51,439 bases of DNA, taken from contig CALWXR010000013.1 of the NCBI GenBank assembly GCA_944385535.1, positions 1-51,439 on the forward strand, read 5' to 3'. The position numbers and the translations under genes are program-made. This document shows positions 4,356 to 32,992 of this stretch, piece by piece; within the stretch, counting starts at the first letter, position 1; every line of letters starts with the position of its first letter. The notes under the pieces were generated by a model. The model had not been told where the DNA came from. It searched no databases and was given only the letters and a program-made list of their open reading frames with translations. The DNA is from an uncultured Oscillospiraceae bacterium. GTDB taxonomy: Bacteria > Bacillota > Clostridia > Oscillospirales > Oscillospiraceae.

Positions 4356-4384
4356 TTGTATATTCGCCAAAACTATGCTAATAT
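4356..4384 (+). promoter_or_regulatory. Promoter of the OLE RNA operon
   Basis: TTGTAT (4356-4361), a 17-bp spacer, and TAATAT (4379-4384) preceded by TGC. Transcription would start at about 4391, exactly where the predicted closing stem of the OLE RNA begins (4392). Confidence 0.8.
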
Positions 4385-4390
4385 ACATCT

Positions 4391-5010
4391 TGACGGTGCA
4401 GTATCCTAGTCAGGATGGCCATTTTCCAAGAAGGGCCTAAAAATCCTTTGAAGGGCACATCGATGAAGTCCCTGGTGTCTGCTTTTTACGCCCAGTTTAG
4501 GGTGGATGCTGGGGGTTAAGGATCCCGGGCGCGCGCCAATGGCATGGCGCATACGACCCGGTTTCCGTGGAGACCTGAAGCTTGTGCGACGACGGTTAGA
4601 ACCCTCGATGAGGGCCCGCTCGCGTACGACTCAGGTATGAACCTGCAAGGCGGTGCACAGAATCGTGTGCTGCGTGCAGAGTAGCCTGCCTTGCGTGAGT
4701 ATGCGGGGAACGATGACAGGCGGCCGGCGGCTATGGCCATAGCTGCTGCCGTTATTGCTTCGGGAAACCATGCTTGCAAAAGAGGCTAAGACTATGGTGC
4801 ATTCTGCCGTGGAAAACACCTAGGCTGTCCGAAAGGGGCAGGCAGGGGATTACAGTACGGTCTAAGTGGCAATCGGGTACCCATTATCCTGGCAACACTT
4901 GGGCGGATGGATCAAATGGAAACGGCCTGCGCGGCAACGGCAGGTTCTGTCCGGTGAAAAACAACCCGACCTAAGCCGTAAGATTTATCTTGCCTGCTAC
5001 CGTCTTTTTG
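4391..5010 (+). ncRNA. ole: OLE RNA (Ornate, Large, Extremophilic)
   Basis: A gene-free, highly structured stretch between the Nudix gene and oapA. The 5' GACGGTGCAG (4392-4401) pairs with the 3' CTGC-T-ACCGTC (4994-5004), one bulged T aside, closing an RNA of 613 nt. OLE RNAs are about 600 nt. The identification rests on this size, on the dedicated promoter, and above all on synteny: OLE RNAs lie directly upstream of oapA, and often near dxs, an FtsJ-like methyltransferase gene, argR and recN, as here. OLE RNA forms a membrane-associated ribonucleoprotein with OapA in Bacillus halodurans and is linked there to tolerance of Mg2+, cold and ethanol. Long open frames through this stretch are chance. 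A TTTTTGT run directly after the closing stem could act as a partial terminator. Confidence 0.88.
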
Positions 5011-5056
5011 TCTTTACGATTTTTGAATTTTTGATTAATAAAAGGGGAACTTCTGC

Positions 5057-11373: not shown

Positions 11374-11379
11374 ATGCGT

Positions 11380-11636
11380 AACGCAGTGAAGGGAAGAAGT
11401 AAGCGTCTCCTTTTCCGCCAGAGAGCTGCCGGCTGGTGCAAGGCAGTGGGAAAAGCCGCCCAAATACCTCCCGGAGCGGTCTGCCTGAAGGAACAGTAGG
11501 GCAGGACGGGTTCGCCCGATACAGCGAAAGGCGTTGTTGGACGCCGTGAGGGTACGGTTCGTAAGGCCGTGCTGAACTGAGGTGGTACCGCGTAAATGTT
11601 ACGCCCTCTGTCCCGATTGAGACAGAGGGCGTTTTT
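11380..11636 (+). promoter_or_regulatory. T-box riboswitch, tyrosine-specific
   Basis: A complete T-box leader. Stem I carries AGAGAGCTG and GGCTGGTG (11420-11440), the usual distal motifs. The 3' side of the specifier loop reads AAATACCTCCCGGAGC with TAC (Tyr) at 11465-11467. The T-box sequence CTGAGGTGGTACCGCG lies at 11577-11592. An intrinsic terminator follows at 11602-11636 (11-bp stem, T5). Uncharged tRNA-Tyr is expected to pair with the specifier and the T-box bulge and to stabilise the antiterminator, turning on the downstream peptidase gene and tyrS. The tyrS gene downstream fits the specifier; the intervening gene is discussed separately. Confidence 0.92.
11602..11636 (+). terminator. 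Terminator hairpin of the T-box leader
   Basis: An 11-bp perfect stem (11602-11612 with 11621-11631), an eight-base loop, then TTTTT. It is the regulated terminator that competes with the T-box antiterminator. Confidence 0.9.
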
Positions 11637-11656
11637 CAATGGTAAGGAGAGGAAGA

Positions 11657-12583
11657 ATGAAACCAATGGATGTATTGCGGGACTTTCCTGTGCGAAAATC
11701 CAGAAAGCAGAAGCAGGCCTTCCGGGAGACGGTATGCGCCTTTGGTGAACAGCTGGGGTATGCCTGCGCTGTGGAGAAGGGACGCTTCGGAGTTCACAAT
11801 CTGGTTCTGGGAGACCCGGAGAAGGCCAAATACTTAATCACCGCCCACTACGACACCTGCGCCCGGCTGCCTGTGCCCAACCTGCTCACGCCTTGCAGCT
11901 TCTGGCCTTTTTTGGGCTATCAGATATTTCTGTGCGCGTTTATGCTGGCGGTTCCCCTGGCGCCCTGGCTTGTGGTGAAAGTGGTCACCGACAGTTTTGG
12001 ATATGCCTGGATTGCCTGGTATCTCTGCTTCTGGGTGGAGCTTTTCCTGCTTTTCTGCGGCCCGGCCAATCGGACCAACGCCAACGACAACACCTCCGGG
12101 GTGGTGACGGTGCTGGAGATCGCGGCCACGCTGCCGGAAAATCTGCGGGATAGGGTATGCTTTGTGCTCTTTGATCTGGAAGAACTGGGCATGCTGGGAT
12201 CCGGCGCCTACGCCTCAGCCCACAAGCAGGCAGTGAAAGGGCAGCTGGTGCTGAATCTGGACTGCGTAGGGGAAGGGGATCACATCCGCCTGTTTCCTAC
12301 GAAAAAGCTGAAAAAAGATCTGCGGAAGCTGAAGCCGTTGCATAGCATCTGCGGCGATTTGGGCAAGAAAAACATCCAGATCCGGGAAAAAGGCTTTGCC
12401 GCCTTTCCTTCCGATCAGATGTCCTTTCCCTACGGGGTGGGCATCTGCGCCCTGAATCAAAGCAAGGTGGGGCTGTATCTGTCCCGGATTCATACCGGCA
12501 GGGATACCATTCTGGAGCAAACCAATGTGAATATTCTGCGCGCCGCCTTGATCACCCTGATCGGCCGCAGCGCAGTTCAATAG
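11657..12583 (+). CDS. M28-family zinc peptidase with inserted membrane segments
   Basis: A 308-residue protein with the metal-ligand pattern of M28 aminopeptidases: AHYDT near residue 63, NANDNTSG near 143 (bridging Asp), FDLEELG near 174 (catalytic Glu pair), LNLDCVGEGD, and a C-terminal IHTGRDT His. Between the first and second ligands, residues about 85-135 form two or more hydrophobic helices, so the enzyme is probably membrane-anchored. The start ATG 11657 has AAGGAGAGGAAG upstream. The gene sits directly behind the Tyr T-box terminator and 16 bases ahead of tyrS, so its expression should rise when charged tRNA-Tyr falls. The substrate is unknown; a role in recovering amino acids is inference. 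Confidence 0.82.
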   Translation: MKPMDVLRDFPVRKSRKQKQAFRETVCAFGEQLGYACAVEKGRFGVHNLVLGDPEKAKYLITAHYDTCARLPVPNLLTPCSFWPFLGYQIFLCAFMLAVPLAPWLVVKVVTDSFGYAWIAWYLCFWVELFLLFCGPANRTNANDNTSGVVTVLEIAATLPENLRDRVCFVLFDLEELGMLGSGAYASAHKQAVKGQLVLNLDCVGEGDHIRLFPTKKLKKDLRKLKPLHSICGDLGKKNIQIREKGFAAFPSDQMSFPYGVGICALNQSKVGLYLSRIHTGRDTILEQTNVNILRAALITLIGRSAVQ

Positions 12584-12599
12584 AAAGGAAGAAGTGAAC

Positions 12600-13823
12600 A
12601 TGAAACTTTACGACGAACTGGTGGCCCGGGGTCTGATCGCCCAGGTGACCAATGAGGAAGAAATTCGGGAAATGATCGACAACGGCAAGGCCACCTTCTA
12701 CATCGGCTTTGACTGTACCGCCGACAGCCTGACCGCCGGTCACTTTATGGCGCTCACCCTGATGAAGCGGCTGCAAATGGCAGGCAACAAGCCCATCGCC
12801 CTGATCGGCGGCGGCACCACTCTGATCGGCGACCCCTCCGGCCGGACCGACATGCGGAAGATGCTCACAAAGGAGGACATTGACCACAACGCCAAATGCT
12901 TTCAAAGGCAGATGGAGCGGTTCATCGAGTTTGGCGAGGGGAAGGCCCAGATGGTGAACAACGCCGACTGGCTGCTGAACCTGAACTATGTGGATCTGCT
13001 GCGGGAGGTGGGCGCCTGCTTCTCCGTGAACAATATGCTCCGGGCGGAGTGCTACAAGCAGCGGATGGAGAAGGGCCTGAGCTTCCTGGAATTCAACTAC
13101 ATGATTATGCAGTCCTACGACTTCTACCACCTGTTCCAGCACTACGGCTGCAATATGCAGTTCGGCGGCAACGACCAGTGGAGCAACATGCTGGGCGGCA
13201 CGGAACTGATCCGGAAGAAGCTGGGCAAGGACGCCCACTGCATGACCATCACCCTGCTCACCGACTCCCAGGGTAACAAGATGGGCAAGACCGCCGGAAA
13301 CGCGGTGTGGCTGGATCCCAATAAGACCTCGCCTTTTGAATTCTACCAGTACTGGCGGAATGTGGACGACGCCGACGTGATGAAGTGCATCCGGCTGCTC
13401 ACCTTCCTGCCTTTGGAGCAGATCAGCGAGATGGACGCTTGGAAGGACGCCAAGATCAACCAGGCCAAGGAGATCCTGGCCTACGAGTTGACCAAGATGG
13501 TTCACGGGGAGGAAGAGGCGGAGAAGGCCCAGGCCGCTGCCCGGGCGCTCTTCACCGGTGGCGGTGAGAATGCCGACATGCCTACCACCCAAATCCCCGC
13601 CGACAAGCTGACAGAGGGTCAGATGGGCATTCTGAACCTAATGGTGGCCTGCGGCCTGGCTTCCTCCAACAAGGAGGCCCGCCGTCTGGTGGAGCAGGGA
13701 GGCGTGTTCGTCAACGACGAAAAGGTGAGCGCCGCTTCCTTCGCCGTCACGGAAGAGATGCTGAAGGAAGGCGTGAAGATCCGCAAGGGCAAAAAGGTTT
13801 TCCACAAGGCAGTTCTGGCTTAA
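12600..13823 (+). CDS. tyrS: Tyrosyl-tRNA synthetase
   Basis: A class I synthetase of 407 residues charging tRNA-Tyr. It has the nucleotide-binding YIGFDCTADSLTAGHFM region (HIGH-equivalent), the tyrosine pocket GGNDQWSN, a KMGKT motif (KMSKS equivalent) and a C-terminal S4 RNA-binding domain (NKEARRLVEQGGVFVND). ATG 12600 is preferred over GTG 12594 because the AAAGGAAGAAG site is better spaced. It is controlled by the tyrosine T-box at 11380-11636, together with the upstream peptidase gene. It is followed by the palindromic repeat at 13837. Confidence 0.97.
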   Translation: MKLYDELVARGLIAQVTNEEEIREMIDNGKATFYIGFDCTADSLTAGHFMALTLMKRLQMAGNKPIALIGGGTTLIGDPSGRTDMRKMLTKEDIDHNAKCFQRQMERFIEFGEGKAQMVNNADWLLNLNYVDLLREVGACFSVNNMLRAECYKQRMEKGLSFLEFNYMIMQSYDFYHLFQHYGCNMQFGGNDQWSNMLGGTELIRKKLGKDAHCMTITLLTDSQGNKMGKTAGNAVWLDPNKTSPFEFYQYWRNVDDADVMKCIRLLTFLPLEQISEMDAWKDAKINQAKEILAYELTKMVHGEEEAEKAQAAARALFTGGGENADMPTTQIPADKLTEGQMGILNLMVACGLASSNKEARRLVEQGGVFVNDEKVSAASFAVTEEMLKEGVKIRKGKKVFHKAVLA

Positions 13824-24798: not shown

Positions 24799-24834
24799 AA
24801 CATACCCACCGGCAGCGCCGGTGGGTATGTTTTA
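24797..24834. terminator. Bidirectional terminator between the ABC permease and aroQ
   Basis: A perfect 17-bp stem (24797-24813 with 24817-24833) with an AGC loop, flanked by A-runs on the left and T-runs on the right. It serves the plus-strand ABC operon and the minus-strand aromatic operon. Confidence 0.9.
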
Positions 24835-25266
24835 TGAGGCGTAATGTTCTTTCAAATACAAAATGGCTTCCCGGTAGCCCTCCAGGCCGTGGCCCTTGAT
24901 GGTTTTTTCACAGGCGAGGCCCGGGTAGGAAATTTGCCGGAAGGGCTCCCGGGCGTCCACATCGGAGATATGCACCTCCACCGCGGGAATGGATACGGCC
25001 TTCAGAGCATCCAGGATGGCCACGGAGGTGTGGGTGTAGGCGGCGGGATTGATGACGATGCCGTCAATTTTGCCGTAGGCCCACTGGATCTTGTCCACCA
25101 GATCCCCTTCGTGGTTGGACTGATACTGGATCAGCTCAATCTGCTCCGCTTTGGCGGTTTCCTCCAAAAGCCGCAGCAGATCGGCAAAGGTGTTTTTTCC
25201 GTAGATCCCCGGTTCCCGGATGCCCAGGAAGTTCAGGTTGGGGCCGTTGAGGACCAAAATTTTCAT
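24832..25266 (-). CDS. aroQ: 3-dehydroquinate dehydratase, type II
   Basis: A 144-residue type II dehydroquinase, the third step of the shikimate pathway. The family motif ILVLNGPNLNFLGIREPGIYG contains the catalytic Tyr. QYQSNHEGDLVDKIQ carries the active-site His/Glu loop, and INPAAYTHTSVAI and VEVHISDVDAREPFR complete the site. Its ATG overlaps the aroEK stop codon (ATGA), so it is translationally coupled. It is the last gene of the eight-gene aromatic operon and is followed at once by the bidirectional terminator. Confidence 0.97.
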   Translation of the reverse strand: MKILVLNGPNLNFLGIREPGIYGKNTFADLLRLLEETAKAEQIELIQYQSNHEGDLVDKIQWAYGKIDGIVINPAAYTHTSVAILDALKAVSIPAVEVHISDVDAREPFRQISYPGLACEKTIKGHGLEGYREAILYLKEHYAS

Positions 25267-26489
25267 GGCGTTCCCTCCAATATGGCAATGATGGCGGCGG
25301 CGGCATCCTCCGGGGAGCCGTCGTTGCTTACAACATGGTCGGCAAACCGGGTGTACATAGGCGCCCTTTGCTGGTACAGCTGGCTTAAGTCACTGGACTG
25401 GGAAAGGGGCCGGCCTTCGGTGGGAAGCTTCCGGATATCCCGCTTCAGCCAGAACAGTTGGCCGTTTTGGTGGAGCAGGGGATAGTTTTGCTCCCGGGTC
25501 ACACATCCGCCGCCGGTGGCAATCACCAGGCCGGACTGTTTGCCAAGCTGGGAGAGCACCTGGGTTTCCCATCGCCGGAAACCCGGTTCCCCCTCCTTGG
25601 CGAAAACTTCAGGTATGGAGCAGCCTGCAAGACGGCAAATTTCCTCGTCCGCATCCAACAAAGCTCTGCCAAGAGAACGGGCCAAAGCGGCTCCTACGGT
25701 GGTTTTTCCGCAGCCGGGCATACCGATGAGGACGATGTTCTCCATTTGGACAGAGAGCTTGCGGTGAATGGCGGCAATGACGCCATCATCAATGGGTGCG
25801 CCGGTAAAATACTCCGCCGCCTCCTTGGCCTGGGCCACCAGCATCCAAAGGCCGTTTTCCCCGGGAAGGCCCAGTTTTTCCGCGTCCAATAAAATCTGGG
25901 TCCGGGCAGGGTTATACACCACATCCAGCACCCCTTCCAGCCGGGGAAAGGCGCGCAGATCCACAGGCGACAGGCCGGTGCTGGGATACATGCCCACGGG
26001 AGTGGTGTTGACGATCACCCGGGCGTCGGCGTGAAGATGAAGATTGTCATAGTTGTTTTCTCCGGAACGGGAGACGATCACCACCCGGGCCCCCTGTTCC
26101 TTCAGCACCGCCGCGGCGGTATGGGAGGCGCCGCCGCTGCCCAGCACCAGCACTTTCTTATCTGCCACATCCAGCTTACTGCGCTTCAGCAGGGAAGCAA
26201 AGCCAAAATAGTCCGTGTTGTGGCCGAAGAGACTGCCGTCCTTCCGGCGGACGATGGTGTTCACCACCCCCAGCTGCTTCGCCCGGGGGGACAGTTCATC
26301 CAAATAGGGGATCACGGTTTTCTTGTATGGCATGGTCACATTCAGGCCGGTAAAGTCTCCGGTTTTCAGAAAATGCCCTACCTCGTCCGGCTCCACCTCA
26401 AATAAATCGTAGGAATACGCGCCCAGATAGGAATGGATCTGAGGGGAGTAGCTGTGCCCCAATTTTCTTCCCAGCAATCCGCACCGCAT
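25263..26489 (-). CDS. aroEK: Shikimate dehydrogenase-shikimate kinase fusion
   Basis: A 408-residue bifunctional protein. Residues 1-250 are shikimate dehydrogenase (GLLGRKLGHSYSPQIH substrate motif, NVTMPYKK with catalytic Lys, HNTDYFGF, Rossmann GSGGASHTAA). Residues 250-408 are shikimate kinase (P-loop GMPGCGKT, DADEEI, ATGGGCVTRE, and the lid-region Arg in EGRPLSQ). It does two consecutive pathway steps. No frameshift is needed to join the halves. ATG 26489 fits the GAGGTGG site best, overlapping the pheA stop; ATG 26492 is the alternative. It sits between pheA and aroQ in the operon. Confidence 0.95.
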   Translation of the reverse strand: MRCGLLGRKLGHSYSPQIHSYLGAYSYDLFEVEPDEVGHFLKTGDFTGLNVTMPYKKTVIPYLDELSPRAKQLGVVNTIVRRKDGSLFGHNTDYFGFASLLKRSKLDVADKKVLVLGSGGASHTAAAVLKEQGARVVIVSRSGENNYDNLHLHADARVIVNTTPVGMYPSTGLSPVDLRAFPRLEGVLDVVYNPARTQILLDAEKLGLPGENGLWMLVAQAKEAAEYFTGAPIDDGVIAAIHRKLSVQMENIVLIGMPGCGKTTVGAALARSLGRALLDADEEICRLAGCSIPEVFAKEGEPGFRRWETQVLSQLGKQSGLVIATGGGCVTREQNYPLLHQNGQLFWLKRDIRKLPTEGRPLSQSSDLSQLYQQRAPMYTRFADHVVSNDGSPEDAAAAIIAILEGTP

Positions 26490-27631
26490 CATACCACCTC
26501 AGTATAGCTTCCCAAGTACTTGAATTCCTCACACAGCTCGTCCAGCTCGCACATGAGCTGAACGAATTCCTCTGAGTAAATGGAGGTCTCCAAATCGAAA
26601 TAGAACATAAACTCAAATTCCCGATCTGGCAGAGGGCGGGATTCCAGCTTGGTCACGTTGATGCCCAGGGTGTAGAGCCTTGCCAGGACTTTATACAGGG
26701 CGCCGGGTTTGTGGGATAGGATCATCATGATGCTGGTCTTGTCAGAGCCGGGATAAATCTCCAGGTTCTTGCTGATGCAGATAAACCGGGTGTGATTGTT
26801 CCCCTTGTCCTGAACGGCGTGCTTTAAGATCTCCAAACCGTACAGCTGGGCGCAGGCGCGGCTGCTTAAAGCGGCTACGTCGGTTCGGGAAGAGGCGGCT
26901 ACCATCTCCGAGGCGACGGCCGTGTTGGCTACCGGCACCACATTCACACCGGGGAGGGACTGTAAAAACTCCCCGCATTGGCTGATGGCCTGCTCGTGGG
27001 AATAGATCTCTTTGATCTGGGAAAGCGCGGTACCGGGCTTCACCAGAAGATTGTGATCCACCTTCAGCCGGAAGGTGCGGACAATGGAGAAGTTATGCCG
27101 GATCATCAGATCATACACCTTGTTCACGGAACCGGCGGTAGAATTCTCAATGGGCAGGACGCCGTATTGGCACATGCCGGATTCTATGGCGGAAAATACC
27201 CCGTCAAAGTTTTTGAAATAGAGAATAAAGGGGGATTTGAAAATCTTCTCGCAGGCGATCTGGGAGTAGGCCCCCTCCACCCCCTGACAGGCTACCATGG
27301 GGGCCTGGGGGAACAGCTTGGGGGTCTGTTCGATGGCGTGGGTGATGGTACGGTAAAGCTCGCTCAGCTGGCCGTTACGCTTGGACTGGTAGCTGCGGCT
27401 CAGTTCAAAGAGCATGGAGTACAGCACCCTGGTGTAGTTTGCCATTTCCGCGCCCGCCTTTTCCGCTACGTCCTGAAGCTTGCTCCGCTCCCGGGCGGGC
27501 TGAAGAATAGGCAGACCGTTTGCCTTCTTATAATCCGCCACCTGGGCGGCGGCCTCCATCCGGGCGCAGAACAGCTTGACCAGCTCGTCATCGATTCGGT
27601 CAATGTCTTTACGGATCTCATTTAAGTCCAT
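26489..27631 (-). CDS. pheA: Bifunctional chorismate mutase-prephenate dehydratase
   Basis: A 380-residue P-protein converting chorismate to prephenate and then to phenylpyruvate. Residues 1-90 are an AroQ-class chorismate mutase (RKDIDRIDDELVKLFCARM). Residues 110-290 are prephenate dehydratase (GVEGAYSQIA, PIENSTAGSV, and NHTRFICIS as the TRF motif). Residues 295-375 form an ACT domain with ESRPLPDREFEFMFY, the phenylalanine-binding feedback site. The start overlaps the aroC stop by 14 bases with AGGAGG inside the aroC end. Feedback inhibition by Phe is expected from the intact ACT domain. Confidence 0.97.
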   Translation of the reverse strand: MDLNEIRKDIDRIDDELVKLFCARMEAAAQVADYKKANGLPILQPARERSKLQDVAEKAGAEMANYTRVLYSMLFELSRSYQSKRNGQLSELYRTITHAIEQTPKLFPQAPMVACQGVEGAYSQIACEKIFKSPFILYFKNFDGVFSAIESGMCQYGVLPIENSTAGSVNKVYDLMIRHNFSIVRTFRLKVDHNLLVKPGTALSQIKEIYSHEQAISQCGEFLQSLPGVNVVPVANTAVASEMVAASSRTDVAALSSRACAQLYGLEILKHAVQDKGNNHTRFICISKNLEIYPGSDKTSIMMILSHKPGALYKVLARLYTLGINVTKLESRPLPDREFEFMFYFDLETSIYSEEFVQLMCELDELCEEFKYLGSYTEVV

Positions 27632-28724
27632 GGTTCATTTTCCTCCTGTCTGTCTGGGTATTCCCCAGGATCATATCCATGATGGCAATGGCTGCCGCTG
27701 CCTCTACCACCGGCACCGCTCTGGGGACGATACAGGGGTCGTGGCGGCCCTTTACCGAAAGGGAAGTGATTTCCTGTGCGCTGAGGGAAACGCTTTGCTG
27801 AGGGGCGGAGATGGAGGGCGTGGGCTTGACGGCGGCGCGGAAGAGGAGCGCCATGCCGTTGGTGATCCCTCCAAGGATTCCGCCGCTGTGATTGGTGGTG
27901 GTTTTCACGATGCCGTCCTCCAGAGTAAACGGATCGTTGCACTGACTGCCCCGAAGATCGGAAGCCCCAAAGCCCGCGCCGAATTCCACGCCCTTCACCG
28001 CCGGAATGCCGTAGACGATTTGGGCGATCCGGCTTTCCACACCGCCGAACATTGGCTCGCCTATGCCGGGGGGAAGTCCCACAACGGCGCACTCAATGAC
28101 GCCGCCTACGCTGTCCCCTGATTTCCGGGCCTGGTCAATGGCCTGGCGCATGGCCTCTCCAGCCGAAAGATCCAGCACCGGAAAGTCCGGGGAAACTTGG
28201 CTCAGCTGGGGATGGATGGGATCAAAGGCCTGATCCCGGCGTCCGGCGATGGAGAGGATGTGGGCTCCCATGAAAATGCCCATCTCCTCCAGCCACTGCT
28301 TGCACAGCCCTCCGGCCATGCAAAGGGGAGCGGTGAGACGGCCGGAGAAGTGACCGCCCCCAGCAGAATCCTGAAAGCCGCCGTATTTTATCTGGGCGGT
28401 GTAATCCGCGTGCCCGGGACGGGGGCAGTCCTTTAAGTTGTCGTAATCTCCGGAGCGGGTGTTTTTGTTATAAATGATTGCGGCAATGGGGGCCCCGCAG
28501 GTGAAGCCGTCTAAAATGCCGCTTAAAAATTCCGGCCGATCCTCTTCCCGCCGGGGGGTGGACCAGTCGTTCTGCCCCGGGGCCCGGCGGTTGAGGAAGG
28601 CTTGAAGCTTTTCCGGATCCACCGGCAGACCGGCGGGAATGCCGTCCAGGGTCATGCCAATGGCGGCTCCGTGGGACTGGCCGAAAATGGAAAGTTTTAA
28701 GTTTTCACCGTAGGTGCTGCTCAT
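27618..28724 (-). CDS. aroC: Chorismate synthase
   Basis: A 368-residue FMN-dependent enzyme making chorismate from EPSP. Family motifs are YGENLKLSIFGQSHGAAIG at the N-terminus, the RRAPGQN region, AGGGHFSGRLTAPLC, and the C-terminal VKGRHDPCIVPRAVPV. The size is usual. AGGAGG five bases upstream supports ATG 28724. It overlaps the aroA stop by 20 bases and the pheA start by 14 bases, so expression is coupled on both sides. Confidence 0.97.
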   Translation of the reverse strand: MSSTYGENLKLSIFGQSHGAAIGMTLDGIPAGLPVDPEKLQAFLNRRAPGQNDWSTPRREEDRPEFLSGILDGFTCGAPIAAIIYNKNTRSGDYDNLKDCPRPGHADYTAQIKYGGFQDSAGGGHFSGRLTAPLCMAGGLCKQWLEEMGIFMGAHILSIAGRRDQAFDPIHPQLSQVSPDFPVLDLSAGEAMRQAIDQARKSGDSVGGVIECAVVGLPPGIGEPMFGGVESRIAQIVYGIPAVKGVEFGAGFGASDLRGSQCNDPFTLEDGIVKTTTNHSGGILGGITNGMALLFRAAVKPTPSISAPQQSVSLSAQEITSLSVKGRHDPCIVPRAVPVVEAAAAIAIMDMILGNTQTDRRKMNHGLK

Positions 28725-29901
28725 AAGTTCCTCCTAACCGGCGGTATTCGTCAAAGAAATGGGGATAGGATTTTTTAACGCATTCCGCTCCCAGAATGGT
28801 CACAGGCCCTGTACAGACGGTTGCCCCGATGGCGGCGGACATGGCGATGCGGTGATCGCTGCAGGCGTCCACCACGCCGCCGGTGAGCATCCGGGGGTAC
28901 ACGGTCAGTGCGTCATCCTCTGCTTCCGCCCATCCTCCCAGGGCGTTGATCATGGCGACCACCGAGGCCACTCGGTCCGATTCCTTCAGCCGAAGCCGCC
29001 GGATGTGGGTGAATACCGCGCCCTGGCGGCAGGCGGCCACAACGCTTAAGATGGGCACCAGATCCGGAATGTCCGCCGCGGAAATGGTGATATGATCTTG
29101 CAAGGCATCCAGCAGATGGGATGCCGCCCGATCCCCCTGGGGAGAGTCAGGAGAGAGATTTTCCATCCGGACGGCGCTTCCCAGGGCGTTTGCCGCCAGG
29201 AAGAACGCGCCGTTGCTCCAATCGCCTTCCATCGTCACCTGACCCACAGAGCGGTAGGGGAAGCCGCCCGCTACATGAAGATGCTCTGCATCCCGGCCGA
29301 ACAGGCCCATGGCCTGAATGGTCATGTCAATATAGGGCCGGGATTCTACCGTACCGGTGAGCCGGATCTGGGAGGTTCCCGGGATCAGGGCGGCGGCAAA
29401 CAGCAGTCCGGTGATAAACTGGCTGGATACGCCCCCGTCAATGGTGTATACCCCCGGCTTCAGCCGCCCTTCACAGAAAATGGTGTTGGCGGTTGGGCGG
29501 GACAGGCGGCAGCCCATCCGCTCCATTTCTTCCCACAGAGGGGACAGGGGACGCTCAGGCAGCCGTCCTTCCAGCAGGAAGGTGGCGTTCACCCCCAGAG
29601 CGCCGGCGATGGGCAGGAGAAACCGCAGTGTGGAACCGCTGTCGTGACAGTTAAGGGTGGGATTTTTGGTAACGGTGGTTACAGGATTTACCTGATAGCC
29701 TTCCTCAACCCGGCGGATGTCTGCGCCCAGAGCGTTGAGACACTGAGCGGTGGCGTCCATATCCCGGCTCACTTCCCGACAGATCAGGGAAGTAGGGCCG
29801 TCGGCAAAGGCAGCGCAGATCAGCAGCCGGTGGGCCTGGGATTTGGAGGGAATGACATGTAAGGAGCCGGATAATTTCCCGGGAAACAGGGTGATGTCCA
29901 T
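28705..29901 (-). CDS. aroA: 3-phosphoshikimate 1-carboxyvinyltransferase (EPSP synthase)
   Basis: A 398-residue enzyme joining shikimate-3-phosphate and phosphoenolpyruvate. PSKSQAHRLLICAA is the N-terminal substrate motif, CHDSGSTLRFLLPIAGAL the PEP-binding block (a variant of GNAGTAMR-type loops), and RLKESDRVASV the C-terminal block. The SGSTLRF form is typical of class II-like enzymes. ATG 29901 lies one base past the aroB stop with GAGGCAGG upstream. Its end overlaps aroC by 20 bases. It is the sixth step of the pathway. Confidence 0.96.
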   Translation of the reverse strand: MDITLFPGKLSGSLHVIPSKSQAHRLLICAAFADGPTSLICREVSRDMDATAQCLNALGADIRRVEEGYQVNPVTTVTKNPTLNCHDSGSTLRFLLPIAGALGVNATFLLEGRLPERPLSPLWEEMERMGCRLSRPTANTIFCEGRLKPGVYTIDGGVSSQFITGLLFAAALIPGTSQIRLTGTVESRPYIDMTIQAMGLFGRDAEHLHVAGGFPYRSVGQVTMEGDWSNGAFFLAANALGSAVRMENLSPDSPQGDRAASHLLDALQDHITISAADIPDLVPILSVVAACRQGAVFTHIRRLRLKESDRVASVVAMINALGGWAEAEDDALTVYPRMLTGGVVDACSDHRIAMSAAIGATVCTGPVTILGAECVKKSYPHFFDEYRRLGGTYEQHLR

Positions 29902-29902
29902 A

Positions 29903-30937
29903 TCAAAGACCTGCCTCAATGAAGGGTTTCAAAAGTTCTACCTGGGTGGGGACGATGGCGCAGTCCCCAATGGCATTGGGAATGATCAGATTTACCAGAT
30001 TGCCCGAACGCTTTTTGTCCGACAGGGTATAGCGGTAGAGATCCTCGGCGGAATACCCGGTAGCGGTGGGCAGGCCGAACCTATCTAACAGGGCGATGAT
30101 CCGCTGGGCGTCAGGGCACCGGGCGGCCCGGCTTACAATGGCAATGCCTATGGCCACGGCTTTTCCATGGGAGACGGAGAACCCGCTTTTTGCCTCGATC
30201 CCATGTCCAATGGTGTGGCCCAGGTTCAGCTTCATCCGCGCGCCGGTGTCAAACTCATCCTGGTTTACCACATCCCGCTTCAGCTGAACGCACCGGGTGA
30301 TTACCGCTTCCCGGTAAAACTCCAGGCCCCGTTCTTCCAGGTGGGCAAACAGCTGGGAATCGTAGAGCACGCCGTACTTGATGACCTCGGCGCAGCCGTC
30401 CCGGAAGGTATCCTCCGGAAGGGTATTCAAGGTGTCCGTGTCGCACAGCACCAGACTGGGCTGATAAAAGGTGCCTGCCAGGTTTTTTCCGGCCGGAAGA
30501 TCAATGGCGGTTTTGCCTCCAACGGAGGAATCCACCGCTGCCAGCAATGTGGTGGGCGCCTGAATAAAGCGGATGCCCCGCAGGAAACAGGCGGCGGCAA
30601 AGCCAGCCAGATCCCCAACCACGCCGCCGCCCAGGGCCACCAGAAGGTCGGAACGGGTCAGCTTGTTTTCCGCCAGGAAATTCAGTAAATCCAGAAAGAC
30701 GGTTCCGTTTTTGCTTTCCTCCCCCTGGGGGAACACATAGCTGACCACGGTAAAGCCGGCGCTTTCCAGGCTGTCCTTTACGATCTGGCCGTAGAACGGA
30801 TACACGGCGCTGTCGCTGACGATACATACCATCCCAGCGCCGCCCAGGGCTTTGGCATGCTGTCCGATGGCGGGCAGCAGCCCCGGGCCGATATGGATGT
30901 CATAGGCTTTGGAAGCGTTGACTGTGACGGTATTCAT
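29903..30937 (-). CDS. aroB: 3-dehydroquinate synthase
   Basis: A 344-residue NAD- and zinc-dependent enzyme turning DAHP into 3-dehydroquinate. Characteristic segments are ALGGGVVGDLAGFAAACFLRGI (nucleotide site), PTTLLAAVDSSVGGKTAID, the metal Glu of CAEVIKYG, and the metal-binding His of LNLGHTIGHGIE with SVSHGKAVAIG. The start ATG overlaps the tyrA stop by four bases (ATGA). It is the second step of the pathway and the third gene of the operon. Confidence 0.97.
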   Translation of the reverse strand: MNTVTVNASKAYDIHIGPGLLPAIGQHAKALGGAGMVCIVSDSAVYPFYGQIVKDSLESAGFTVVSYVFPQGEESKNGTVFLDLLNFLAENKLTRSDLLVALGGGVVGDLAGFAAACFLRGIRFIQAPTTLLAAVDSSVGGKTAIDLPAGKNLAGTFYQPSLVLCDTDTLNTLPEDTFRDGCAEVIKYGVLYDSQLFAHLEERGLEFYREAVITRCVQLKRDVVNQDEFDTGARMKLNLGHTIGHGIEAKSGFSVSHGKAVAIGIAIVSRAARCPDAQRIIALLDRFGLPTATGYSAEDLYRYTLSDKKRSGNLVNLIIPNAIGDCAIVPTQVELLKPFIEAGL

Positions 30938-31764
30938 CCGTCCACCTCCTCTTTCCGCCGCTTTCCTTCCTCCAACAGGGCTACCAAGGCATCCTCCCGG
31001 TTGTCCGCGATGGCCTGCCGGTAGGCGGTGAGACTGTCAATATAGGTATCCAGTTCAAACAGAAGATTCTCACGGTTTTCCAGGAACAGCTCTCCCCACA
31101 TCTGGGGATTCAGCCATGCTACCCGGGTCAGATCCTTGTAGCTGCCTGCGGAAAAGCCTTTGTGACGGGCGGCGGTAGGGGATTTGATAAAGGCGTTGCT
31201 TAAAATATGGGGCATCTGGGAGGTAAAGGCGATGATTTTGTCGTGCTCTTCCGCTGTGGTTACGGAGAAGGCGCCAAAATGGCAGGGTTTTAAGGCGTCC
31301 TTTACCCGCTGAAGCAGTTCAATGTCATCGTAAACCGGGGGAACCAAAACCATAGGGGCCCCTTCAAACAGATCCGCCCGGCTGTACTTGAAGCCGGAAA
31401 ACTGGGAACCGGCCATTGGGTGGCCGCCTACATAGGTAAAGCCATACTGCTTTGCCAAAGGAAAGCAGCGGCGGCAGATTTCCTCTTTGACGCCGCAGCA
31501 GTCTATGACCAGGGCTTCCCGGGAGATAAGAAAGGCGTTCTTCTCCAGCCACATGGCGCTGCCCCCGGGGTAGATGGCCAGCAGGATCAAATCGCACCCG
31601 GGGACGGTGGTTTCGTCCAGCTTTCCCTGGACGGCGCCCGCCAGCATGGCAAAGGAGAGCATGGATTCATCCTTTTCCCCGGCGAATACGCTGTGGCCTT
31701 CCAGCGCGTAGGCTCTGGCCAGGGATCCGCCGATGAGACCAAGGCCTAAAATGCCAACCTTCAT
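30934..31764 (-). CDS. tyrA: Prephenate dehydrogenase
   Basis: A 276-residue NAD(P)-dependent enzyme converting prephenate to 4-hydroxyphenylpyruvate for tyrosine. The N-terminal Rossmann motif is GILGLGLIGGSLARAY. GGHPMAGSQFSGF holds the catalytic His region and AFTSQMPHILSNAFI the helical domain. It is short and has no C-terminal ACT domain, unlike some Firmicutes enzymes that carry a tyrosine-responsive extension, so feedback control is likely elsewhere. It overlaps aroF by four bases. Confidence 0.95.
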   Translation of the reverse strand: MKVGILGLGLIGGSLARAYALEGHSVFAGEKDESMLSFAMLAGAVQGKLDETTVPGCDLILLAIYPGGSAMWLEKNAFLISREALVIDCCGVKEEICRRCFPLAKQYGFTYVGGHPMAGSQFSGFKYSRADLFEGAPMVLVPPVYDDIELLQRVKDALKPCHFGAFSVTTAEEHDKIIAFTSQMPHILSNAFIKSPTAARHKGFSAGSYKDLTRVAWLNPQMWGELFLENRENLLFELDTYIDSLTAYRQAIADNREDALVALLEEGKRRKEEVDG

Positions 31765-32762
31765 GCGATCACCTCACGGATCCGCTGGATCTTCCGGTTT
31801 AACTCATCAAATTGTTCCGGTGTCAGGGACTGAGCGCCATCGCAAAGGGCGCAGGAGGGATTGTTGTGTACCTCCACCATGATGCCGTCGGCTCCCGAAG
31901 CGGCCGCGGCACAGGCCATGGGGGGCACCAAACCGGCCACACCGGTGGCGTGGCTGGGATCCACCACCACAGGCAGATGGGTCAGGTTGTGGAGCACCGC
32001 CACGGCGGACAGATCCAGGGTGTTCCGGGTGGCGGTCTCAAAGGTGCGGATGCCCCGCTCGCAAAGGATCACCTGCTCGTTGCCCTCGCTCATAATGTAT
32101 TCCGCGCTCATAAGCAGCTCCTGGATGGTATTGGCAAGGCCCCGCTTTAGTAAAATGGGCTTTTTGGTTTTGCCCAGTTCCTTTAACAGATCGAAGTTCT
32201 GCATATTCCGTGCGCCCACCTGGATGATGTCCACATCCGCGAACAGATCCAAGGTGGCGATGTTCATGATCTCGGTGACGATGGGCATGCCCGTGGCCTT
32301 CTTCGCCTCCAGAAGCAGACGGATGCCCTCGCCCTTCATGCCCTGGAAGGCGTAGGGGGAGGTGCGGGGCTTAAAGGCGCCGCCCCGGAGAATGTTGGCC
32401 CCGGACTGCTTCACCGCGTTGGCCACGGAGATGATCTGCTCCTCAGACTCCACGGAGCAGGGGCCGGCGATCATGGCGAAATATCCGCCGCCGACACGCA
32501 CACCGCCTACGTCGATGATGGTCTCTTTGGGGTGAAACTTCCGGTTGGCCTGCTTGAAGGGCTCGGACACCCGCTTTACAGAGTCTACCATTTCCAGGCT
32601 TTTCAGCAGCTCCATATCCACCCGGCTGGTGTCGCCGATCAGGCCGAGAATGGTCACCTCGGCGCCCTCGGAAATGTGGACGTCCAGGTTCATATGCTTC
32701 AGCCAGTCCACCAGGTGCTGGATCTGGGCGGGGGTAGTGCCTTGCTTGAGTACTGCGATCAT
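31761..32762 (-). CDS. aroF: 3-deoxy-7-phosphoheptulonate synthase (DAHP synthase)
   Basis: A 333-residue enzyme condensing PEP and erythrose-4-phosphate, the entry to the pathway. Residues 1-70 form a ferredoxin-like regulatory domain (IAVLKQGTTPAQIQHLVDWL) as in the Thermotoga type. The KDSA-like barrel follows: IAGPCSVES, LRGGAFKPRTSPYAFQG, KRGLANTIQE, and VVDPSHATG for metal and substrate binding. In relatives the N-terminal domain binds Phe or Tyr. It is the first gene of the aromatic operon, under the leader-peptide attenuator at 32777-32930. CAGGAG eight bases upstream supports ATG 32762. Confidence 0.97.
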   Translation of the reverse strand: MIAVLKQGTTPAQIQHLVDWLKHMNLDVHISEGAEVTILGLIGDTSRVDMELLKSLEMVDSVKRVSEPFKQANRKFHPKETIIDVGGVRVGGGYFAMIAGPCSVESEEQIISVANAVKQSGANILRGGAFKPRTSPYAFQGMKGEGIRLLLEAKKATGMPIVTEIMNIATLDLFADVDIIQVGARNMQNFDLLKELGKTKKPILLKRGLANTIQELLMSAEYIMSEGNEQVILCERGIRTFETATRNTLDLSAVAVLHNLTHLPVVVDPSHATGVAGLVPPMACAAAASGADGIMVEVHNNPSCALCDGAQSLTPEQFDELNRKIQRIREVIA

Positions 32763-32776
32763 AATATCATCTCCTG

Positions 32777-32813
32777 AATAAAATAACGCCGCACGGGCAA
32801 TTCGTGCGGCGTT
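32777..32813 (-). terminator. Attenuator terminator of the aromatic operon
   Basis: On the minus strand an 11-bp stem AACGCCGCACG / CGTGCGGCGTT (32813-32803 with 32795-32785) is followed by ATTTTATT. It lies between the Tyr/Phe leader peptide and the aroF ribosome binding site, so it would end transcription unless prevented. Confidence 0.85.
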
Positions 32814-32858
32814 TCAAGTGTATTGAAAGTCCTGGCAAATTCACTGCAGCACAAATCG

Positions 32859-32889
32859 CTATTACTTTTTGTGAGTAAAAAAGTAATAG
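32859..32889 (-). promoter_or_regulatory. Leader hairpin over the Tyr/Phe codon run
   Basis: A perfect 12-bp inverted repeat (32859-32870 with 32878-32889) covers the last aromatic codons and the stop of the leader peptide. It would form only when no ribosome occupies this stretch, as expected for a 1:2-type pause or protector hairpin in attenuation. Confidence 0.6.
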
Positions 32890-32930
32890 TAGGAAAAGTA
32901 AAAGTAAGCTGCGGTGTTGTACATTGCCAT
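32862..32930 (-). CDS. Tyr/Phe-rich attenuation leader peptide
   Basis: A 22-codon frame on the minus strand, ATG at 32930 to TAA at 32864-32862. GTGGAGG lies nine bases upstream of the ATG. The peptide has six Tyr and four Phe, with the run YFYFSYYYFF at residues 9-18. It contains no Trp. It sits between a strong promoter and a terminator hairpin ahead of aroF. By analogy with enteric pheA and pheST leaders, ribosome stalling at Tyr/Phe codons when charged tRNA is scarce would prevent terminator formation and raise expression of the Phe/Tyr operon. The peptide itself is unlikely to have another role. Regulation by this means is inferred from layout and codon content. Confidence 0.85.
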   Translation of the reverse strand: MAMYNTAAYFYFSYYYFFTHKK

Positions 32931-32963
32931 GGTATTTTTCCTCCACGTCCGGTAGGTGTGGAC

Positions 32964-32992
32964 ATTATACCACGGTGCGCGGAATAATGCAA
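32964..32992 (-). promoter_or_regulatory. Promoter of the aromatic operon
   Basis: On the minus strand TTGCAT (32992-32987), a 17-bp spacer, and TATAAT (32969-32964) preceded by TGG. It directs the leader peptide and all eight aromatic genes. Confidence 0.85.

Follow-up and report, generated by a model that had tools for sequence, protein, structure and literature searches.

How is the aromatic amino acid operon of an uncultured Oscillospiraceae bacterium controlled, and does a short reading frame rich in tyrosine and phenylalanine codons ahead of its first gene take part? The window analyzed here is the whole 51,439-nucleotide stretch of contig CALWXR010000013.1 (assembly GCA_944385535.1). 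On its minus strand, the operon begins with aroF, which encodes DAHP synthase (31761..32762, ATG at 32762; NF006421/TIGR01361), and continues at 24832..31764 with tyrA, aroB, aroA, aroC, pheA (chorismate mutase-prephenate dehydratase), an aroE-aroK fusion, and aroQ. These eight genes cover the entire chorismate route together with the Phe and Tyr branches. The preliminary description had called the operon complete, which holds for the chorismate route and both branches and not for the transaminase step, since neither a transaminase gene nor a trp gene is among the eight. Downstream of aroF at 59 loci (the AroF-found named-genome loci with at least 7 kb past the aroF start), relatives of TyrA are encoded in 51, of AroB in 49, of AroA in 52, of AroC in 51, of PheA in 42, of AroE-K in 45, and of AroQ in 35. 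The window's gene order is present in 7 of 9 relatives inspected and differs in the other two, L052 and L066.

Between position 32992 and the start of aroF at 32762, the minus strand carries in order a promoter, a ribosome binding site (SD), a short frame, a hairpin, and a terminator. All of the parts that had been described there, including the 22-codon frame with its own SD and ten aromatic codons, were located on this strand. The promoter (32964..32992, read from the sequence) consists of TTGCAT (32992-32987), a 17-nt spacer, and TATAAT (32969-32964) with an extended -10 TG (32972-32971). A sigma-70 consensus scan omits it, since the rule of the scan demands four of six matches in the -35 element and this promoter has three; the scan returned one plus-strand promoter-like site versus a chance expectation of 0.8. 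The SD is GGAGG (32940..32944, minus strand), and the leader peptide frame MAMYNTAAYFYFSYYYFFTHKK (32862..32930, minus strand) runs from an ATG at 32930 to a TAA at 32864-32862 and is kept in kind in relatives. Ten of its 22 codons specify Tyr or Phe, and the placement of nine of these within residues 9-18, as first reported, is exact in the translated frame. There are no Trp codons, and the operon's end branches, Phe and Tyr, match the codon run. No other window open reading frame of 8 to 60 codons with an SD of at least four bases is as dense in aromatic codons (9 of 10 here; 6 of 10 in the runner-up).

The leader RNA folds with a free energy of -59.2 kcal/mol (z score of -5.8 versus 200 dinucleotide shuffles). 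A core 1:2 hairpin of 12 pairs (32859..32889, minus strand, from the alignment) lies over the Tyr-Tyr-Phe-Phe codons and the stop and is formed by the arms CUAUUACUUUUU (32889-32878) and AAAAAGUAAUAG (32870-32859). In the minimum free energy fold, the codon RNA CACCGCAGC (32908..32916, minus strand), the outer part of region 1, can pair with 32850-32842; this pairing overlaps the antiterminator strand and lengthens the protector helix. Region 2, the antiterminator strand (GCGATTTGTGCTGC / GCGAUUUGUGCUGC; 32846..32859, minus strand), is conserved in near relatives and pairs with region 3 at 13 of 14 positions (32859-32846 with 32810-32797). Region 3 (GCCGCACGAATTGC / GCCGCACGAAUUGC; 32797..32810, minus strand) comprises the terminator 5' arm and loop and is the competing partner of region 2 according to the swap tests described below. 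The intrinsic terminator hairpin, 3:4 (32785..32813, minus strand), was identified by a terminator scan and by covariation and has 11 pairs, 8 of them G-C, with a T-rich tail at 32784-32775.

The frame was sought upstream of aroF at other loci with two rules that were untuned and had no held-out set. The strict rule called for an SD of at least four bases, a position inside 300 nt, and at least six Tyr/Phe per 10 codons; under the looser rule, the SD was optional and Trp was counted too. The first set consisted of 110 loci, with the window itself as L082; L049 was dropped for its short upstream DNA. Its loci from named genomes were the best 80 of 591 AroF matches, a nonrandom choice, and its family sample was 30 loci including the window, with 160 of 200 family genomes matching AroF. 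Under the strict rule, 79 of the 105 distinct regions upstream of aroF (window included) have a leader, compared with 0.24% of 2,100 dinucleotide shuffles, 0 of 105 reverse complements, and 0 of 1,793 random 300-nt stretches from loci L002-L081. These controls were chosen because T-rich DNA yields Phe, Leu, and Ser in any frame, and by them a chance origin of the frame is rejected. Under the looser rule, which admits some doubtful leaders, such as that of L078 (SD 3, GTG start), 93 of 109 loci have a leader (89 of 105 without four duplicate rows) and 16 are leaderless.

Leaders also occur in samples taken further from the window. With an SD of at least three bases, they were found in 16 of 20 regions from the same family, 26 of 40 from the class, and 11 of 20 from the phylum; counted by family, leaders are present in 25 of the 38 families sampled in the class and in 11 of the 20 sampled in the phylum. 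These 80 regions were hand-picked from among the best-ranked places, mostly one per family, and thus favor window-like AroF. A further 40 regions, hand-picked from the remaining places and with several in families already sampled, gave a leader in 26. Five of the 120 regions repeat first-set loci over 150 nt (L128, L133, L140, L143, and L189; three with a leader and two without), five (L163, L181, L217, L237, and L244) have no start codon at the position taken as the beginning of aroF, and L151, with 99 nt upstream, was scored as a miss. The preliminary description had proposed that relatives be examined for the frame, its Tyr/Phe codons, and the terminator. The frame and codons proved to be conserved in kind, and an intrinsic terminator stands behind 90 of the 93 looser-rule leaders and follows every one of the 55 leader frames detected among the 80 regions. 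The taxonomic frame of that description was too narrow, given the leaders in 25 of the 38 class families sampled. The best reading of these counts is that such attenuators are widespread in Clostridia.

What is conserved in related leaders is composition: the order of residues drifts (YYYFF, YFYFYF, YYYYY), and the Tyr/Phe content is maintained. Over 170 leaders (167 distinct DNA sequences), Tyr makes up 13.6% and Phe 17.0% of in-frame residues, versus 1.5% and 4.1% for Tyr and 10.0% and 9.0% for Phe in the other two frames, a comparison that is description and not proof, being dependent on leaders picked by aromatic content. Trp codons occur in 39 of the 170. A DNA similarity search found no second copy of the leader in the same genome. 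In L088, L092, L099, and other relatives, the frame appears to pass through region 2 (KVKVISAAKN and similar) and to stop beyond it; the window differs in that its stop sits at the start of region 2. L052 and L066, the two loci with a different gene order (aroF, pheA, tyrA), also have a Tyr/Phe leader before aroF and lie on contigs titled Lentisphaerae and Kiritimatiellae. Either aroF was transferred there together with its attenuator, or the contigs are misbinned or misnamed.

The pairing of region 2 with region 3 is specific to each locus. Over 86 loci, 2:3 duplexes made from a locus's own strands have a mean energy of -15.2 kcal/mol, those with swapped partners -11.9 kcal/mol (standard deviation, 0.27), and those with a shuffled region 2 -9.6 kcal/mol; none of 10,000 permutations was as good as the native set (z score of -12). 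Taken singly, only 46 of the 86 loci score better than every one of 20 shuffles made from their region 2. The same test on 54 leaders from the wider samples gave -13.4 kcal/mol for own strands versus -9.9 kcal/mol for swapped strands (0 of 10,000 permutations), and on 38 leaders outside the family it gave -12.8 versus -9.3 kcal/mol (0 of 10,000; z score of -9). The antiterminator pairing, for which alternative folds had been proposed as a check, therefore exists in the window and is locus specific across loci.

To assess helix covariation, the window was aligned to 18 near relatives with MAFFT, and 500 shuffles served as a control. In 2:3, 88.8% of cells are paired, and both sides change in six pairs, a number reached by 2 of the 500 shuffles. 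In 3:4, 91.8% of cells are paired, with both-side changes in seven pairs and 27 cells (0 of 500 shuffles). All cells of core 1:2 are paired, and 31 of 500 shuffles match its values; covariation of this helix tells little, because 8 of its 12 pairs never vary. Pairing between the codons ahead of the aromatic run and the antiterminator strand is again locus specific over the 86 loci (z score of -7.1; 0 of 5,000 permutations), and the codons immediately ahead of the run are often Ala-Ala or Ala-Gln. The leader frame thus appears to contain part of the terminator 5' arm in a second copy, by which the protector helix would be able to shut out the antiterminator. In the window, 2:3 is overlapped by the outer extension of 1:2 and not by its 12-bp core.

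Computation thus yields a frame with its SD, a codon content and a conservation in kind, a terminator, and a locus-specific 2:3 pairing with covariation. The SD-led frame, the cognate codon run, the intrinsic terminator, and an antiterminator that excludes the terminator are hallmarks of a leader-peptide attenuator, and with the conservation of frame, codons, terminator, and antiterminator and the lack of a T-box they support the original reading of this leader as a Tyr/Phe attenuator. We conclude that, very probably, the leader is a trpL/pheL-type transcription attenuator mediated by the ribosome and governs the aroF-to-aroQ operon through the supply of charged tRNA-Tyr and tRNA-Phe. Judged by its codons, the signal would be both charged tRNAs, and we infer that the frame is translated, that ribosomes stall on it, and that read-through follows. 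A ribosome would begin translating the leader frame before RNA polymerase has left the leader. With Tyr- and Phe-tRNA charged, it would get to the stop codon and mask much of region 2, allowing the 3:4 terminator to form and transcription to stop ahead of aroF. When Tyr- or Phe-tRNA is short, the ribosome would stall in the Tyr/Phe run and open the 1:2 hairpin; region 2, once freed, would pair with region 3, so that the terminator would be delayed and the operon transcribed.

The switch was modeled by placing a ribosome-sized mask at each codon and measuring how far the terminator 5' arm is paired upstream before the 3' arm is made. Over 86 loci, the mean value was 0.76 when the ribosome stalled at aromatic codons and 0.65 when it stalled at nonaromatic ones; with the stop masked it was 0.34, and the unmasked leader gave 0.51. 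The best stall exceeds the stop by more than 0.2 in 72 of the 86 loci. That nonaromatic stalls fall only a little under aromatic stalls counts against the mechanism. So do the 16 leaderless loci, the loci whose region 2 does not beat all of its shuffles, and the relatives in which the frame passes beyond region 2. The window shows a weaker contrast (stalls, 0.82; no ribosome, 0.82; stop, 0.61) because its 12-bp 1:2 core does not overlap 2:3, and in this model the no-translation state of the window leader does not appear clearly "off." When the complete leader is folded at equilibrium, the terminator prevails whatever the ribosome state, with values of 0.92 to 0.96 in the window and means over 86 loci of 0.96 with no ribosome, 0.84 for an aromatic stall, and 0.96 at the stop. 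The switch must therefore be kinetic, if it works. Known attenuators are likewise kinetic.

A second type of leader, with a peptide like FxFSWGYFYFSAGYF, was seen in L147, L152, L217, L226, L228, L232, L243, and others, as well as in L158, L163, and L177. Among 21 leaders of this type, selected by pattern, several columns show conservation of the third codon position (TTT, AGC), and in several leaders the stretch folds as a hairpin within the frame. Because of these two features, the constraint looks like one on RNA, perhaps a pause or protector hairpin. L150, L206, L211, and L213 share a further variant, with the common motif TRFT(G/S)F(Y/W/G)YP(G/R)(Y/F)F.

Firmicutes often use T-boxes for such genes, and the window leader could be imagined as a T-box or riboswitch that binds tRNA or a metabolite, with the frame incidental. 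The genome has 14 T-box matches, 5 of them over the cutoff; the genes behind the 14, named by eye, include several for tRNA synthetases, a TrpB-like protein, threonine dehydratase, and transporters. A T-box stands before aroF itself in 3 of 100 class and phylum regions (L182, L183, and L225), all of which, however, are without a leader frame, and at the window leader a covariance-model search found neither a T-box (RF00230) nor any other Rfam family. At E values of up to 5, that search gave three subthreshold matches (snoRNA, malK-II, and miRNA) and no amino acid leader family. A T-box or riboswitch at this site was rejected for want of an Rfam match; moreover, an SD-led Tyr/Phe frame at 79 of 105 loci versus 0 of 1,793 random stretches is not incidental, and we regard this explanation as extremely improbable. 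The sensor before aroF seems to have been exchanged between T-box and leader peptide. A whole-locus scan of 11 loci (10 of the 16 leaderless loci plus L078; L037, L044, L056, L067, L073, and L079 were left out) detected a single T-box, which lies in L032 on the strand opposite to aroF and roughly 6 kb away from it. The only above-cutoff T-box of the window lies at 11377-11611. It had been described as a leader for tyrS; the T-box is there, but an M28 peptidase gene comes first and the tyrosyl-tRNA synthetase gene second (11377-13823).

An SD-led short frame followed by a terminator is equally compatible with a nascent-peptide arrest sensor of the TnaC/Erm type, in which the peptide would stall the ribosome upon binding of a small molecule, for example, Tyr or Phe, and not in response to tRNA charging. 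Recurrence of the peptide motif FSWGYF..AGYF in the second leader type speaks for such a sensor, but the third codon positions of that type are conserved as well, pointing to an RNA constraint, and window-type leaders drift in residue order with their Tyr/Phe content kept. Arrest peptides are unlike this, and we consider arrest sensing very unlikely. Leader translation might also act through Rho, RNA stability, or translational coupling and not through the intrinsic terminator, given that the position of the ribosome could hide or expose other sites and that the leader is pyrimidine rich, as Rho prefers according to excerpted text of PMC13323073. Such a route is hard to square with an intrinsic terminator after all 55 frames, whose 5' arm covaries both with the 3' arm and with region 2, and its probability is in our judgment very small.

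Leader-peptide attenuators are known from enteric bacteria, as at pheL-pheA and trpL, and Rfam presumably includes the enteric Phe leader family. Aromatic regulation in low-GC Gram-positive bacteria is reportedly the subject of Panina et al. 2003. As a ribosome-mediated attenuator, the window leader shares with enteric pheL and trpL an SD-led short frame, a run of end-product codons, 1:2, 2:3, and 3:4 helices, an intrinsic terminator, and a biosynthetic operon. It differs from them in having no Rfam leader match, in mixing Tyr and Phe codons, in preceding a DAHP synthase/chorismate-Phe-Tyr operon, and in belonging to Clostridia. T-box leaders (RF00230) share the gene, aroF, in the three sampled loci named above; they differ in binding tRNA directly and in having no frame, and they are absent at the window's aroF. 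In the excerpted text of Brewer et al. 2021 (PMC8632094), uORFC-13-1 is a candidate uORF with "at least one phenylalanine residue" and a terminator, and 24 representatives precede aroF in Acholeplasma and environmental DNA. The two have in common that a candidate frame containing Phe codons, together with a terminator, lies ahead of aroF; compared by description and not by consensus, the window leader differs in its Tyr run, of which that excerpt makes no mention.

Within Firmicutes, the excerpted report of Kaiser et al. 2018 (PMC5794164) gives experimental support for a Leu-rich attenuator peptide of the Staphylococcus aureus ilv-leu operon. This too is an amino acid leader-peptide attenuator in a Firmicute, differing in its amino acids (Leu/Ile), its operon, and its class, Bacilli. 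Naville and Gautheret 2010 (PMC2965389, in excerpt) predicted that hisS paralogues of bacilli are preceded by His leader peptides and stated that, to their knowledge, none had been demonstrated outside Proteobacteria and Actinobacteria. Those leaders resemble the present one as leader peptides in place of a T-box in Firmicutes and differ in being predicted, in sensing histidine, and in preceding synthetase genes. Narunsky et al. 2024 (PMC11109978) list eight uORF candidates, and their main text does not name aroF, phenylalanine, or tyrosine. No description of an aroF leader in Clostridia was found in the open-licence PMC literature. The kind of element is therefore known, and this element and its breadth are new to the literature examined. 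Family models miss attenuators of this kind, whose frames are short and whose sequences are little conserved.

The leader is also relevant to whether transcription and translation are coupled in Firmicutes. Excerpts of two papers (PMC10953045 and PMC13323073) predict that the RNA polymerase of Firmicutes/Bacillota outruns ribosomes, and the latter classes Bacillota under runaway transcription. A polymerase that outruns ribosomes would hinder leader-peptide attenuation, which speaks against the proposed mechanism. With our confidence evenly divided, we suggest that the window leader belongs to an old, Clostridia-wide set of aromatic attenuators that has at least two RNA architectures and has been exchanged with T-boxes in some lineages, and that the kept locus-specific antiterminator pairing means that ribosomes keep pace with polymerase at least at these leaders, perhaps by way of a pause hairpin in the frame, in a phylum classed as runaway. 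The presence of a leader before aroF in 25 of the 38 class families sampled offers many natural test sites for the uncoupling prediction. The leader also points to a way in which gut Clostridia may adjust their synthesis of Phe and Tyr. Elsewhere in the window, at 4377-5019, a full-length OLE RNA (429.7 bits) lies upstream of a DXP synthase gene; the relatives of this OLE RNA-bearing genome are largely animal-gut metagenome-assembled genomes.
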